The position numbers were made by a program, and so were the translations under genes. A model generated the notes under the pieces. It saw only the letters and a program-made list of their open reading frames with translations, did no database searches and was not told the DNA's origin. Below are positions 17,932 through 31,043 of a stretch of DNA of 33,241 nt, piece after piece. Source of the stretch: Candidatus Ornithospirochaeta stercoripullorum (GTDB lineage Bacteria > Spirochaetota > Spirochaetia > Sphaerochaetales > Sphaerochaetaceae); assembly GCA_017694595.1 (NCBI GenBank), contig JADIMT010000092.1, forward strand, positions 1 to 33,241. The letters run 5' to 3'. How positions within the stretch are numbered: position 1 is the first letter of the stretch; each line of letters opens with the position of its first letter.

Positions 17932-18083
17932 AAAATAATGGTAAACTCAAAATCGGAGAGAGAAAACCATAATTTCTTGGAGTACTGGACAAGCTCGTAC
18001 CGTTAAAATCAAGTGAACAGCATGTTGACCTATGGTTCACAACAAAGCTAATGTCTAATTGGATTTTTTTACTGGAGTATGTT

Positions 18084-18524
18084 ATGAAATGTGTCCTTGC
18101 AAATGATCATGGTGGTGTGGAGCTGGCAGCAGAACTGAAGAAGCACCTAGCTGAGAGAGGCATTGAAGTTGTCTATCTCGGTACAGATAGCACAGAGAGC
18201 GTTGACTATCCTGACTATGCAGAGAAAGCTGTCAATGAATATAGGAAAGGTTCCTATGATTTCGGAATCCTCATCTGCGGAACAGGCATTGGAATCTCCA
18301 TCTCTGCAAATAAGATGAAAGGCATAAGATGCGCTCTGCCTCAGAATTCATATGCATCTGAGATGACAAAACGTCACAATAATGCCAATTTCATAGCTTT
18401 TGGTGGCAGAATAGAATATTCAGAACCAGTCACGGCTATCCTGGATGCTTATCTGGATGCCACGTTCGAAGGTGACAGACATCAAAGACGCATCGACAAG
18501 ATGATGGCTCTGGAAGGCAAGTAA
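18084..18524 (+). CDS. rpiB: ribose-5-phosphate isomerase B
   Basis: MKCVLANDHGGVELAAELKKHL, CGTGIGISISANKMKGIRCAL; start moved to ATG at 18084 after tggagt SD. Confidence 0.94.
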   Translation: MKCVLANDHGGVELAAELKKHLAERGIEVVYLGTDSTESVDYPDYAEKAVNEYRKGSYDFGILICGTGIGISISANKMKGIRCALPQNSYASEMTKRHNNANFIAFGGRIEYSEPVTAILDAYLDATFEGDRHQRRIDKMMALEGK

Positions 18525-19546: not shown

Positions 19547-20800
19547 CTAGCCCCCGAAATACATGAAAAGATAAGCCAGCACATTCCCTTCCGTTTCCTT
19601 CAGCTGAATGGCCTCTTCATAGCTTATCTTCTCAGAACCTTTCATCATCGTCCTGACATGTTCTTCAAGAAGAGCTGCAAGCTGAGGAGAGTCAATCACA
19701 AGCGAAAGCTCTTCAGAAAGCGCCATTGAACGGAAATTGAAATTGGCAGAACCTATTACGACATAACGGGAATCTGCAATCATCAGCTTTTCATGAAGCA
19801 GCGGAAGTTCTATGCCATTCTCATCGAATACAGACAGAAAGACATCGGATGAAGTATCCGCAATCAACGAAGGCAAAGCTGAATATATTCCGCTTGCAGC
19901 ATAGCCACGGAGATCGACAGGCATGATGATATCCACATCAACCCCATGCCTGGAAGCTTCTTGCAACGCACTTTTCATGTTGCCATCCAGAGCAGGAAGA
20001 TAAGGAAGTATCAAGAGTTTCTCCTTCGCGCTCCCTATAACAGATGCGAACATTCCGGCAGTTTCCTCTGTCGGAACAAGCCATGCTTGAAATGATTCAT
20101 CCGCATCAGCCTCCGATACAGCGAAATCGTCACGTTCTATCTCTTCCATGCTTATATCATTCCACATTGAGACAAATTCATCAGAGAGAAGAGAGGCAAG
20201 AGATGGTGACTTGAACAGATACATGCTGTCACGCTGCGTCTTTCCCTCTCCTGCTCCAAGAGAGATGTAATTCATGTTCATTCCACCAATCGCACAATAG
20301 AGACCATCAACAACAAGCATCTTCACATGATCACGATGGATTATCGTCGCAGGATTGATCAGATGAGTCACAGAAACAGGATTATACTCTACCAGATGCA
20401 CTCCGGAAGAACGCAGAAAATAAAGAGGCGTCATATACTGCTTCGAAGCAGTCATATCAAGAGAGGAGATTCCATCGATTATGAAGTAGACTCTCACACC
20501 ACGCTCGGCAGCATCCATAATGGCTCTGTAAAGTTTCTCAAGAGCAGGGGCATCAGATCCGAGGAAAGTAGATATCAGAATATAGTCATCAGATTCTTCT
20601 ACAAGCTGTGTGAAGCGGTCAAGCCATGCGCTTCCATCAAAAAAAACTTCTGGCATTGGCACAGAGAGGGAACTGGCAGATGAAAGCTTCTCTTCCAGCG
20701 CTATTTCAGGAGATAGCAATCTGGAAGATGTGAAAGCTCTTGTGCTTGTACATGAGCAAAGCAATAGAAATATAGAAGTTATTACCCAGAACCTCTTCAT
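19547..20800 (-). CDS. phospholipase D-like / cardiolipin synthase-like lipoprotein
   Basis: Two HKD motifs HRDHVKMLVVDGLYCAIGG and HEKLMIADSRYVVIGSANFN; lipobox-like LLLCSCTS. Confidence 0.9.
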   Translation of the reverse strand: MKRFWVITSIFLLLCSCTSTRAFTSSRLLSPEIALEEKLSSASSLSVPMPEVFFDGSAWLDRFTQLVEESDDYILISTFLGSDAPALEKLYRAIMDAAERGVRVYFIIDGISSLDMTASKQYMTPLYFLRSSGVHLVEYNPVSVTHLINPATIIHRDHVKMLVVDGLYCAIGGMNMNYISLGAGEGKTQRDSMYLFKSPSLASLLSDEFVSMWNDISMEEIERDDFAVSEADADESFQAWLVPTEETAGMFASVIGSAKEKLLILPYLPALDGNMKSALQEASRHGVDVDIIMPVDLRGYAASGIYSALPSLIADTSSDVFLSVFDENGIELPLLHEKLMIADSRYVVIGSANFNFRSMALSEELSLVIDSPQLAALLEEHVRTMMKGSEKISYEEAIQLKETEGNVLAYLFMYFGG

Positions 20801-20804
20801 GACC

Positions 20805-21956
20805 CTAACGCATTGTAGGAAAAATAAAAGGCATCGGCAACATGTTTTCCAAACGATATTCCACAGGCTGCGAATGTGGAGTCACAAGCACTATCTTCGT
20901 CTCAGGTCTTGCAAATTCGGCAATCACTTGCAAGCACATCGCACAGGGAGGAGCAGGCGGATCATCATCTGAATAGACAACCAGCATGTCGATTCCGAAC
21001 TCACCTTCATTTGCAACTGCTGTAGTAATTGCGTTACGCTCTGCGCAGATAGTAGCGCCATAAGATGAATTCTCCACATTGCATCCAGCGTAAATCCTGC
21101 CTGTTGAGGCAGAAACAACAGCAGCCCCCACTTTGAATTTGGAATATGGTGCATAGCCATGTTTCCAGCTGTCTTTTGCCGCTCCGATAGCAGATTCAAG
21201 CACAGCAGAATAAGGAAGCTTCTCGGCAAGAGGCTTTATCCAGCATGCTCCATACTTCAACTTTCCAGAACGTTCATTGCCGAAAAGAAGCTCTTCCAAT
21301 TCCTCTCCAGAGTTGAAATCCTGGATGAATGACAAGTTCTCAATCACAGCATCAGCACCGGCACGAAAAGCTTCCGTAGCCCTTATTGTTGTCATCATAG
21401 AGACTACTCTGCACCCCGCTCTCTTGCCGCTCTCAATACCGCCAGGTGTATCCTCGAAGACAACAGCTTCTTTCTCATCACAGCCAAGATTAATCAGACA
21501 AAGCTGATAGATATCCTTCTCTGGTTTGTTCCGTTTGATATCAGCGCCAGTCGCGATGAAATCGAAAGAGGATTGCTCAAGTCCAACAGCCTCTATATTC
21601 GCTAGCACTTTCCATTTCGGTGCACTGGAGGCGAGCGCTGTCATAATCCCACGCTCCCTGGCTTTCCTGACGATATCAGCACCGGGGAGAGCTATATTCG
21701 TTTTTCCAATGAGCTCTGTGTATCTCTTTCTGAAGAACGCCGAAGCTTCTTCATAGGAATATGGAGGTCCATCAAGTCCTAAAGCAGATGCGGAGATATC
21801 GAAAAAAGGGCGCTCACCACAGCCCAAGGCATCACGGAAAGCTTCCTCATCAGCTCTTATGCCAATAGAGGAGAAATAATCAATACCAACTTTGATGGAA
21901 ATTCCTTCGCTATCGGCAAGAACTCCATCCATATCAAAAAGCAGCGCTTTAATCAT
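20805..21956 (-). CDS. fusion protein: N-terminal HAD-superfamily (beta-PGM-like) phosphatase + C-terminal cytidine deaminase
   Basis: N-term LLFDMDGVLADSE, ALASSAPKWKV, FEDTPGGIESGKRAG; C-term YAPYSKFKVGAAV, GCNVENSSYGATICAERNAI, PPCAMCLQVIAEF in one uninterrupted 383-aa ORF. Confidence 0.93.
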   Translation of the reverse strand: MIKALLFDMDGVLADSEGISIKVGIDYFSSIGIRADEEAFRDALGCGERPFFDISASALGLDGPPYSYEEASAFFRKRYTELIGKTNIALPGADIVRKARERGIMTALASSAPKWKVLANIEAVGLEQSSFDFIATGADIKRNKPEKDIYQLCLINLGCDEKEAVVFEDTPGGIESGKRAGCRVVSMMTTIRATEAFRAGADAVIENLSFIQDFNSGEELEELLFGNERSGKLKYGACWIKPLAEKLPYSAVLESAIGAAKDSWKHGYAPYSKFKVGAAVVSASTGRIYAGCNVENSSYGATICAERNAITTAVANEGEFGIDMLVVYSDDDPPAPPCAMCLQVIAEFARPETKIVLVTPHSQPVEYRLENMLPMPFIFPTMR

Positions 21957-23320
21957 CTTCTGGCCCTGAGGAACTTTCCATCCCCTTTCAATCCCAGATA
22001 GATACCATCACCCATGATCAGACGGCCACGGAGATAAGTCATCACAACCTTTCCTGTCACATTGAAACCATCGTAAGCTGTATAGCCGGAAGCTGAATGT
22101 ATCGTATCCTTCGAAAGCGTCCAGTTATAATCAGGATCGAACAATGTTATATCAGCATCAGTGCCAACTTCCAGCGAGCCTTTCTCCGGATAGAGGCCGA
22201 AGAGCTTTGCAGGGCCTGTAGAAACAAGGTTGACAACCTGCGAAAGCGAGAGCTTGCCGCTTGTAAGCGCAAATGTATGCAAGAGCGGAAGCAGCTCCTC
22301 AGTACCTGGAATGCCTGGATATATTGTCCTGCAATCATTGCTTTCAAGCTTCTGCTCCCTTGTAAATGAACAGTGGTCAGTAGCCACAACCTGGATTTCT
22401 CCATTGACAAGCGCTTCCTGCAGTGCCTCATTGTCTTCAGCTGTGCGAAGCGGCGGTGTCATCACATACAACGGTCCATCAACGCCCTCAAGCTTCTCTT
22501 TTGTCAGGAAAAGATAATGTGGTGTCGTCTCCACAATGACCTTCACGCCATCCATTCTCAGGCGTCTCACGCTCTCCAAGCCTTTCTTCGATGAAAGATG
22601 GACAACGTAGATAGGCATATCAAGCTCTCCAGCGATTCGACCTACATACTCGATAGCAGCAGCTTCAGCCTCTGCAGGACGCAGCGCAGCGTGATCTATT
22701 GGCTTGTAAGTTCCCTTCCAATTGGCCGAGATGGATGTGACTATCTCATCATCTTCACAATGCACAGTGACCATCAGTCCCAGATCCTTAGCATCGCTGA
22801 AAATCGATTTGAGCTCATCGCGGTTATCAACAAGATATCCGACATCTTTATATGTAGTGAACAGCTTAAGAGTCCCGATACCAGCCCTCTTTATCGACTC
22901 AAGCTCCCTCCTGATATCAGCCCTGTATTTGTAAACTCCCTGATGAAGTGCATAGTCAATAGCCATCGGAATCATCTCGCGCCGTCTTGCATGGAGAGAA
23001 TCCAGCAAAGAGATTTTATTATCATCTGCGAAATCAACAACAGTTGTGACACCGCCGAAAGCCGCCAGCCTTGAACCTTCCTCGAAGGAGTCAGCAGTCA
23101 CGGTTCCCCTGCTCACTAAATGATAATGTGTATGCGCATCGATTATTCCAGGAAGGACGCAAAGACCATCCGCATGCACGACCATTGTATCAGGAGGTAG
23201 TGTCGCAACGTCTATCGCCGGCGCTACACGCACAATCTTTGAACCAGAAATCAGAATGTCATAGTGGCGCATCCACTCTGTATCAACAACTAAACCGTTT
23301 TTAATCAGAATATCGCTCAT
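21953..23320 (-). CDS. dihydropyrimidinase / D-hydantoinase-like amidohydrolase
   Basis: VLPGIIDAHTHYHL, GIGTLKLFTTYK (carbamylated Lys region), VATDHCSF; stop overlaps start of the HAD-CDA gene as ATGA. Confidence 0.9.
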   Translation of the reverse strand: MSDILIKNGLVVDTEWMRHYDILISGSKIVRVAPAIDVATLPPDTMVVHADGLCVLPGIIDAHTHYHLVSRGTVTADSFEEGSRLAAFGGVTTVVDFADDNKISLLDSLHARRREMIPMAIDYALHQGVYKYRADIRRELESIKRAGIGTLKLFTTYKDVGYLVDNRDELKSIFSDAKDLGLMVTVHCEDDEIVTSISANWKGTYKPIDHAALRPAEAEAAAIEYVGRIAGELDMPIYVVHLSSKKGLESVRRLRMDGVKVIVETTPHYLFLTKEKLEGVDGPLYVMTPPLRTAEDNEALQEALVNGEIQVVATDHCSFTREQKLESNDCRTIYPGIPGTEELLPLLHTFALTSGKLSLSQVVNLVSTGPAKLFGLYPEKGSLEVGTDADITLFDPDYNWTLSKDTIHSASGYTAYDGFNVTGKVVMTYLRGRLIMGDGIYLGLKGDGKFLRARR

Positions 23321-27895: not shown

Positions 27896-29497
27896 TCAGC
27901 TTGCCTGCTGTTCTATCCTGAACCAGAAAGGCGTTCCGGCTCTGCCATTTGCAAGCCGTACAGAATACCTGAGAGCATTGCCTGCCATACATAGGATCAT
28001 CCATTCAGTCTCTATGTTCCTTATCCCATGCGTCCGGAATCTGCGGTAGCCGAATGCGGCCTTGAGAAGGGAGAAGGAGCCCTCGGCCTGTATGCTCCGG
28101 TTTATCCGCATCTCTATTCCCTTCTCGCTTGTTATCAGAACTTCGCTCTTCCTTCTGTATTTCTCAGCATCAATATCTATCGTAAGACGCTTGTAATCAT
28201 GCTTATCAGCAGTGGAAAGCATGCACTGCTTCCTTAAAGGACAGCTCTTGCAGCCTCTCCTTGCCTCATGCACCTGTCCCCTGGAAGTGTCATGCACATG
28301 GTAGAGCTTATGCCCTCTCATGCAGGTGAAGACATTGCTTTCTTCGTCGTATGCGAAACTGGTCTTCAGAGAAGGATTCTTTCTTCTCTTCCTTTTCTTG
28401 TCCTCCTCATGGTACTGCGGCTTGATGTATGCCTTCTTCTCATGCTCATCAAGCCATCTGTAATTCTCCTTTATGTCATAGCCTGAATCCGCACAGTACG
28501 AATCATAGGAGAACCCATCTTTCTCCAGCTTCTCGAGCATCGGTATCATCGTGCGGTAGTCAGTGCGGTCCATGAATGCTCCGCAGGCAATCACATAGCC
28601 GTTCTGGACGAGGTCCTGCATGTTGTATGCCGCCTTGAGCTGCCCGTTGCGTATGTAGTCTTCCTTCATCCTCATGAACGTCGCATCCTCATCCGTCTTT
28701 GGAAGGCTGTTCCTCCCGCTCTCCTTCATCTTCCGTATCCATGAGATGTAATTCGCTATCTTCTGCTTCTCCTCGCGTATCTTCTTCCAGTCCCTCTGTT
28801 CCTGTGAAAGGTGATGGCCGCGGCCGCTGGCTGATGGGAACCTGACGCCGTTCTTCTGCATCAGATCCTCAATGGAATCCATGACAGCCATAACGTTCTT
28901 TTCCGTAACTTCAGCTTCAAGGCCATATGAACTTGAAATCGCGGAAACCCCTCATCAGGGCCTTTGCCAGATTCTTCTCGCATCCCGTGCGCCACACGAA
29001 TGTGTATTTCCCGGCTGCGCTCTCTATCTTCGTCCCATCCTGGAATACTGCTTGCCCATCAAGCTCCCCAAGCTCCATGAGCTTCATCACGCTCTGCCTC
29101 ATGATGTCGGCTATCGCGTCATGGCTATTACGGATGAATCTGTCTATCGTGGAGTGGTCTGGTATCCTGCCCATGCCAACGATCCTCATGCATACGCAGT
29201 CACGCCTCATCAGCTTCTCTATCTCCCTGGATGAGAAACAGCCGTTCATGTATGAATATATCAGAAGTACCATCATCTTCGACGGATGTATGGCAAATGG
29301 GCGTCCAAGGCTTCTATGTATGAGGAATATGTTCCATCAAGCGGTATTGAGAGGTTCAGATACAGTTGTCCGTCTTCGAGATTCAGGATATTATTATTCA
29401 TGGCCATATGGCTTAAGCAAGTCCTCCTGTTTATTTCTTTGTGGTATCTGAAATTATAACAGAAAAGGCTTGCTTTTTCTATGCCAAGACGCCTCAA
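27896..29497 (-). pseudogene. IS1182-family transposase, disrupted into three ORF fragments
   Basis: Fragments 29273..29497, 28917..29276 and 27896..28891 read in succession as one transposase (N-term; GRPFAIHPSKMMVLLIYSYMNGCFSSREIEKLMRRD; C-term with CADSGYDIKENYRWL and GSFSLLKAAFGYRRFRTHG) but lie in different frames. Confidence 0.85.
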
Positions 29498-29607: not shown

Positions 29608-30870
29608 TCACTCGTGGATGTCTCCATATGTCTCGAGAAGAGTGTCACATGTAATGCGGATAACATCTTCGCCTGTAATCTCGCCAGCAACTGCTCTAGC
29701 AAGGTTGTCACGGAGTGTGTTGCCCCAGTCCTTACCAATGTAAGAAGACTCGATAGCTTTATCTCTCTCCGGACCTGCATCTGTAGCATTGAGCTCCTGA
29801 ACGAAGATATCAAGACCAGGAACATCGTAATCAACTTCGATTCCCTTGACACCTGGCAGATAGTTTCCATCCTTGCAGTACTGGATGTAGTTTTCTGGCT
29901 GGAAGAACCAATTGATGAACTCAACTGCAGCCTCTTCCTGGCCTGTTCCATCGAATGCGTAGAGGAAGTTACCACCAAGACATGTAGCAACTGTTGTCTC
30001 ATATGGCATCAGAACAGGAATCCATTCGAAGTCCTTGATGTTCTCCATGTAGTCTGTGATAACCCAGTTACCAGCAAGGTGAGCAGCAACACGACCAGTC
30101 TTGAACATCTGCTGAGCGTTCTCTGTTCCGAGACCTGCGGAAACTGATGAGTATCCATTCTTATAGAGTGAAAGAATGAAGTCGATTGCTTCCTTTGTCT
30201 CAGGGCTATCGAGAATAAGGTGCTTCGGATCTTCTGGATCGAAGAAGAGTGAACCGAACTGATAAAGAATAGTTCTGATTCTCTGCTGTGAGTAGTCAAT
30301 TACAAGAGCATAGTCGAGTGTATCCTCGTTAGCTGCCATAACCTGATCAAGGGCTGCCATGAATTCATCCCATGTCCATCTCTCTTCCTCTGTGAGAGGA
30401 TAGGAAACACCAGCTTTGTCGAATGCTGTCTTGTTGATGATGAGACCTACAGCTGTAGCATTGACTGTACCTGCAATGAGCTCGCCTGTAGCTGGGCTTG
30501 TTCCGTCCATTGCGAAAGAGTCACCTGTAAGATCACCAACCTTGCCCTCGAGAGAATATGCCAGATCATTATACTGGATGAAGTGGCCAGAGCGGATAAG
30601 AGCTGGAAGGTCATGAGCCATTGCTCTGTTCTGAATCTGTGTCTGCATATCGCCATAAGCGATTTCATTGATGAAGACCTGGATTCCCTTATCTGCATAT
30701 TCAGCATTGAATCTCTCGACAGCTTTAGCCATCGCTCCGCCTTCAAGTGTATCATCTGAAAGAAGAATCTCAAGGCGTTCTACACCACCGGATGACTCTC
30801 CACTACCACCAGCCCAAACGCCAGTAATAAGGAGTGAAAGCACAAGGAATGCTGCTAAGAATTTCTTCAT
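29608..30870 (-). CDS. carbohydrate ABC transporter extracellular solute-binding protein
   Basis: Signal peptide MKKFLAAFLVLSLLITGVWAGGSGESSGG; SBP family 1 features such as FKTGRVAAHLAGNWVI, EERWTWDEFMAALDQV; start at SD-preceded ATG 30870. Confidence 0.92.
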   Translation of the reverse strand: MKKFLAAFLVLSLLITGVWAGGSGESSGGVERLEILLSDDTLEGGAMAKAVERFNAEYADKGIQVFINEIAYGDMQTQIQNRAMAHDLPALIRSGHFIQYNDLAYSLEGKVGDLTGDSFAMDGTSPATGELIAGTVNATAVGLIINKTAFDKAGVSYPLTEEERWTWDEFMAALDQVMAANEDTLDYALVIDYSQQRIRTILYQFGSLFFDPEDPKHLILDSPETKEAIDFILSLYKNGYSSVSAGLGTENAQQMFKTGRVAAHLAGNWVITDYMENIKDFEWIPVLMPYETTVATCLGGNFLYAFDGTGQEEAAVEFINWFFQPENYIQYCKDGNYLPGVKGIEVDYDVPGLDIFVQELNATDAGPERDKAIESSYIGKDWGNTLRDNLARAVAGEITGEDVIRITCDTLLETYGDIHE

Positions 30871-31043
30871 ATGTTTCTCCTTTTTATTATTCCTATCGGT
30901 TAGTCTACACCCAGTATCTAGGGCAATTCTACTCACATTTTGCTATCATATTCTACTTTACCATGATTTCTTGTTAAAAATCTGGAAATCATAAAGTCAA
31001 AGGCCTTCAGGACAAGCCTTTTTGCAATGCTTTTCTAAAAGCA

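Follow-up and report, generated by a model that had tools for sequence, protein, structure and literature searches.

The window, i.e. the whole stretch of 33,241 nucleotides analysed here, contains a gene in which a HAD subfamily IA (HAD-IA) phosphatase and a cytidine deaminase (CDA) are joined in a single polypeptide. That this fusion is genuine is well supported. The pairing of these two ordinary enzymes has been long conserved and is apparently undescribed; no account of a HAD–CDA fusion was found in the open-access papers searched, which does not prove that none exists. The open reading frame runs from 21956 to 20805, with an ATG start and zero internal stops. Its position had been given exactly in the first-pass annotation, where it was described as a single frame joining a HAD domain to a complete CDA; the strand, which was not specified there, is the minus strand, and all the HAD and CDA motifs quoted could be found in the translation. 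The gene, its domains and its neighbours are:

20805..21956, minus strand: HAD–CDA fusion gene, 383 aa plus stop
21282..21956, minus strand: HAD-IA phosphatase domain with helical cap, residues 1 to about 225 (Pfam, alignment, model and fold matches)
21207..21281, minus strand: linker, residues 226-250 (model and conservation)
20808..21206, minus strand: tetrameric-type cytidine deaminase domain, residues about 251-383 (Pfam, TIGR01354 and alignment)
21953..23320, minus strand: dihydropyrimidinase/D-hydantoinase-like gene, upstream (TIGR02033, 394.8 against a cut-off of 393.25)
19547..20800, minus strand: PLD-domain gene, downstream, syntenic in most family loci examined
18051..18524, plus strand (opposite to the fusion): RpiB/LacAB-type sugar-phosphate isomerase (Pfam and synteny)

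In Pfam, HAD_2 (PF13419) matches residues 5-185 of the fusion (E 8.8e-21; 75.3 bits, cut-off 23.8) and dCMP_cyt_deam_1 matches residues 255-351 (E 8.3e-19), and in NCBIfam the CDA half is above the curated cut-off of TIGR01354 (cyt_deam_tetra; 125.4 vs 113.65 bits) and the HAD half above that of the broad model TIGR01509 (HAD-IA-v3; 52.2 vs 29.4 bits). Besides the latter, no specific HAD family was above cut-off for the fusion among the NCBIfam matches listed; beta-phosphoglucomutase (TIGR01990, 59.9 vs 189.4 bits) and BT2127-type inorganic diphosphatase (NF053653, 55.9 vs 245 bits) were rejected as identities of the HAD half, both being below their equivalog cut-offs. HAD motifs I-IV (DxD, S/T, K, ED) are complete (D8/D10, S110/S111, K144 and E168-D169), with D8, D10, K144, E168 and D169 invariant in the alignment (A1). 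The CDA half holds the zinc ligands C304, C338 and C341 and the catalytic E306, and the corresponding CxE and CxxC motifs are kept in nearly all aligned fusions. Since dCMP deaminases use an HxE zinc ligand, and C304-A-E306 is of the CxE type, a nucleotide-type dCMP deaminase was also rejected. Both catalytic sets are complete in nearly all the full-length members aligned, and comparison with close relatives indicates purifying selection on both halves (pN 0.13-0.23, pS 0.62-0.84). The AlphaFold2 model has a mean pLDDT of 90 across both domains and a pTM of 0.65; the linker, which is the least conserved region of the protein, carries a beta-hairpin in this model.

The fold neighbours of the HAD half are CbbY, TM_1254, YniC, AlnB (alnumycin P phosphatase), HDHD1A and beta-phosphoglucomutase. 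With the HAD-IA/beta-phosphoglucomutase-like enzymes CbbY, TM_1254 and YniC/HxpB it shares the fold, the cap and the four catalytic motifs, and it is 25-29% identical to these best fold matches over the domain; unlike such enzymes, it is fused to a CDA and lies far below the specific NCBIfam cut-offs of the models listed. AlnB and human HDHD1A (pseudouridine-5'-phosphatase) have the same fold and are also among the best structural matches, although identity is about 23-24%, neither is fused, and a C-nucleotide substrate is not indicated for the HAD half. The CDA half, with EfCDA as fold neighbour, resembles homotetrameric cytidine deaminase (Cdd; TIGR01354; B. subtilis 1JTK, 2d30) in its full domain, three-cysteine zinc site and catalytic glutamate, and differs from it in the N-terminal HAD domain and in one motif, where the usual PCGxCRQ reads PCAxCLQ in the window (20925-20951, minus strand) and in most fused relatives; CRQ is retained in another fused group. 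CDA is joined to a partner in other proteins too, in the phylum of L054 (L163, L164, L165, L166, L167 and L168), but the partners are different ones: by reading, these are apparently pyrimidine-nucleoside phosphorylase–CDA, YbeY–CDA and CDA–TrmO-like fusions. A separate 410-aa frame in G000 (contig C11, L005:607-1839) encodes a GrpB domain (PF04229) and, after it, a weak cytidine-deaminase-like domain, and weak CDA matches in frames of about 300-350 aa occur in many genomes of the genus.

Both HAD and CDA domains were present in a single open frame in 95 of the 139 genomes of the family, which belong to 14 of its 22 genera. This is a hand count from the match table, comprising matches from residue 3 or earlier to residue 358 or later plus 11 genomes with two pieces sharing the frame; contig-edge copies (G017, G094, G111 and G031) and a copy with a stop (G037) were left out. 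The fusion is found in the single-contig genomes G076, G090, G091, G093, G100, G110 and G113. The genome of the window is fragmented (113 contigs), as would suit two genes merged by an assembly or sequencing artefact, but the recurrence of the architecture in 95 genomes, several of them single-contig, rules out such an error, so that the frameshift or lost stop contemplated in the first-pass annotation has a negligible probability. Outside the family, no fusion was seen among the matches listed for 393 genomes of the phylum, about 36 of which belong to the family, leaving about 360 outside it. Nor was any seen among those listed for 150 genomes of a second phylum (that of L054); in both cases a real fusion would be expected near the top of the ranked matches. 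In plasmid records there was no site covering 80% of the fusion protein. The architecture had been suggested to be non-standard, which holds for the genomes searched; within one family it is fixed in most members.

As a rule, a genome with the fusion has no other cytidine deaminase. A CDA above the TIGR01354 cut-off was present in 118 family genomes, none of which held a fused and a standalone gene together when the rows were read singly; a standalone frame of less than 250 aa was the only one in 19 of the 118 (excluding a contig-edge piece in G094), and G119 has two fused copies, one of them cut by a contig end. In some relatives, either the HAD or the CDA half is missing or decayed. G002 and G004 have a CDA without HAD at the same syntenic site, and in G081/G083 and G125/G131 the HAD half lacks the DxDG motif and the N-terminal part, with the CDA intact; in these genomes tblastn gave no good N-terminal HAD piece in another frame, with weak traces in G081 only. 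Deletion or decay of the HAD with retention of the CDA has taken place in at least three lineages. The reverse is found in one genus (G023 and G025), which retains an intact HAD next to a CDA half devoid of zinc-binding and catalytic residues and carries a separate canonical standalone CDA elsewhere in the genome:

L113:6890-7900 and L130:4621-5634 (G023 and G025): decayed CDA half still joined to an intact HAD

The loss of either half in relatives shows that the two can be separated and thereby speaks against obligatory channelling, although lineages without the HAD may have altered their metabolism. The interpretation initially proposed, a channelled pyrimidine salvage in which the HAD half makes a nucleoside and the CDA half deaminates it, is thus weakened: the fusion on which it was built is genuine, but the mechanism finds no support, as an intact CDA outlives the HAD, the opposite happens in one genus and the sugar-gene contexts described below speak against it.

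Upstream, the end of the dihydropyrimidinase-like gene, which is barely above its cut-off, overlaps the ATG of the fusion by 4 bp, and this gene is a probable co-transcribed partner. Of the 36 loci compared, most have the dihydropyrimidinase-like gene followed by the fusion, the PLD gene, two small genes and, on the opposite strand, rpiB, with a DHH/DHHA2-domain protein and RelA/SpoT beyond rpiB where the contig extends. A conserved neighbour, rpiB directly adjoins the fusion in several genera; in L103, L105 and L106 it does so with no dihydropyrimidinase or PLD match, and in L104 the PLD gene is kept, with no dihydropyrimidinase match beside the fusion. In L096, a glyA-like gene is separated from the dihydropyrimidinase by glycine-cleavage genes. 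Elsewhere in the window, an IS1182-type transposase remnant in two frames (27896-29276) is flanked by an ABC solute-binding protein gene (29608-30936) and by a PA14-domain gene and permeases.

A single origin of the fusion is suggested mainly by shared synteny, since the trees do not show a single clade. In the HAD tree, the fused HADs cluster with eight standalone HADs of spirochaetes, apart from nearly all other HADs (branch support 99/98); the very long-branched paralogue L003 also falls into this cluster, and a single clade of fused HADs was neither rejected (p-AU 0.246) nor shown. The CDA tree, in which the backbone is weakly supported, splits the fused rows into two main groups, and HAD-less and HAD-decayed CDAs are placed among or beside them. 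The replacement CDAs of G023/G025 and most other canonical standalone CDAs are separate from the fused ones (99/93); exceptions to this pattern are the long-branched L133 and two divergent fused rows, L122 and L123, which lie beside HAD-less rows.

The explanation that we favour, at slightly better than even confidence, is that of a two-enzyme polypeptide in which the enzymes would act next to each other and not as the steps of an obligatory pipeline, with a HAD half leaning towards sugar phosphates. Both activities, which we infer from conserved residues, as well as the oligomerisation and the HAD substrate, are predictions. The C-terminal half would be the cytidine/deoxycytidine deaminase of the cell, of nucleoside type and with zinc on three cysteines, and the uridine produced could go to uridine kinase or to PNP_UDP_1-family proteins; the former was above cut-off, and the latter family present, in ten out of ten genomes checked. 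The N-terminal half, perhaps carried on the CDA oligomer, would be a catalytically active, Mg-dependent HAD phosphatase with a small phosphorylated metabolite as substrate, and the fusion would provide co-expression and fixed stoichiometry, not an obligatory substrate channel. A point against this explanation is that the fusion is intact across 14 genera, which might be more than mere convenience would predict.

As HAD substrates, sugar or pentose phosphates appear somewhat more likely than nucleotides such as CMP or dCMP. The best fold and sequence matches of the HAD half include several sugar-phosphate enzymes (CbbY, TM_1254 and YniC), and the sugar genes around the nearest standalone spirochaete HADs, in two operons, favour this choice: L138 lies between FGGY kinase and transketolase genes, with a Zn-dehydrogenase upstream, and L141 is downstream of an FGGY kinase gene and of a similar dehydrogenase gene (the latter by reading). 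On the other hand, sugar genes were seen at these two standalone-HAD operons only, L139 having no such context, and the C-nucleotide phosphatases AlnB and HDHD1A are also among the fold matches. The operons of relatives are, moreover, weak evidence of substrate, because HAD-IA enzymes are promiscuous and subfamily IA includes nucleotidases. One of these is YjjG, which acts on dTMP, dUMP and UMP (PMC8475336).

The existence of a pyrimidine nucleotidase in this subfamily is in line with the alternative that survives best, which we hold as a tentative, clearly less probable option, namely a CMP-to-uridine shunt, for salvage or turnover, in which the HAD half would remove the phosphate from CMP, dCMP or a modified pyrimidine nucleotide and hand the resulting nucleoside on to the CDA half. 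The two activities would then be consecutive, uridine kinase is available for the product, the fusion has been kept in 14 genera and pseudouridine-type phosphatases appear among both the fold and the sequence matches of the HAD half. This is countered by the repeated loss or decay of the HAD with the CDA kept and its mirror image in one genus, by the location of L138 and L141, two standalone HADs of the closest group, in sugar operons, and by the NCBIfam matches listed, among which there is no nucleotidase-specific model. In its fuller version, a nucleotide phosphatase–deaminase in one polypeptide would yield (deoxy)uridine from CMP/dCMP or from a modified cytosine nucleotide and be, in most of the family, the fixed exit from the cytosine nucleotide pool, which we regard as a little more doubtful still.

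It is improbable that the gene belongs to a pyrimidine nucleoside degradation operon, with the HAD half acting on the product of the dihydropyrimidinase-like enzyme or on a nucleoside-derived pentose phosphate (ribose-1-phosphate). The 4-bp overlap, the conserved synteny and the nearby RpiB gene would fit such a role, but the latter is on the opposite strand and the fusion persists in L103-L106 without an adjoining dihydropyrimidinase match. In addition, neither a carbamoylase (TIGR01879) nor a pyrimidine-nucleoside phosphorylase (TIGR02644) was above cut-off in the ten genomes searched, and the high-scoring DHO_dh matches were frames of 567-602 aa in nine of these ten, a 440-aa match being found in G093; the one DHO_dh protein that was read, in G000, is PyrD-PyrK-like and lies between pyrF and pyrC. 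With DHO_dh matches of this kind and no carbamoylase, the classical reductive uracil pathway, for which no dihydropyrimidine dehydrogenase was identified in these genomes, is unlikely and was set aside. The G000 protein (contig C101, L160:2300-3967) has 555 aa, with a DHO_dh N-terminal domain (Pfam) and a C-terminal half that, from reading the sequence, resembles the electron-transfer protein PyrK; its gene is part of a pyrE-pyrF-pyrC operon, and DHO_dh is found in the 567-602-aa frames in eight other family genomes. Lastly, a HAD half turned into a mainly structural or regulatory, decaying passenger would agree with its decay or deletion in several lineages, but is very unlikely given the catalytic residues kept in the window and in nearly all aligned fusions and the purifying selection on the domain.

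The fusion is an apparently new architecture made from two ordinary enzymes. It also carries a warning for annotation, as the sole cytidine deaminase of these genomes may hide under a 'HAD hydrolase' label. Where a standalone cytidine deaminase would be usual, most of one spirochaete family uses a fused HAD–CDA, and the relatives without one half offer natural controls for the question of whether fused salvage enzymes serve channelling or joint expression only.
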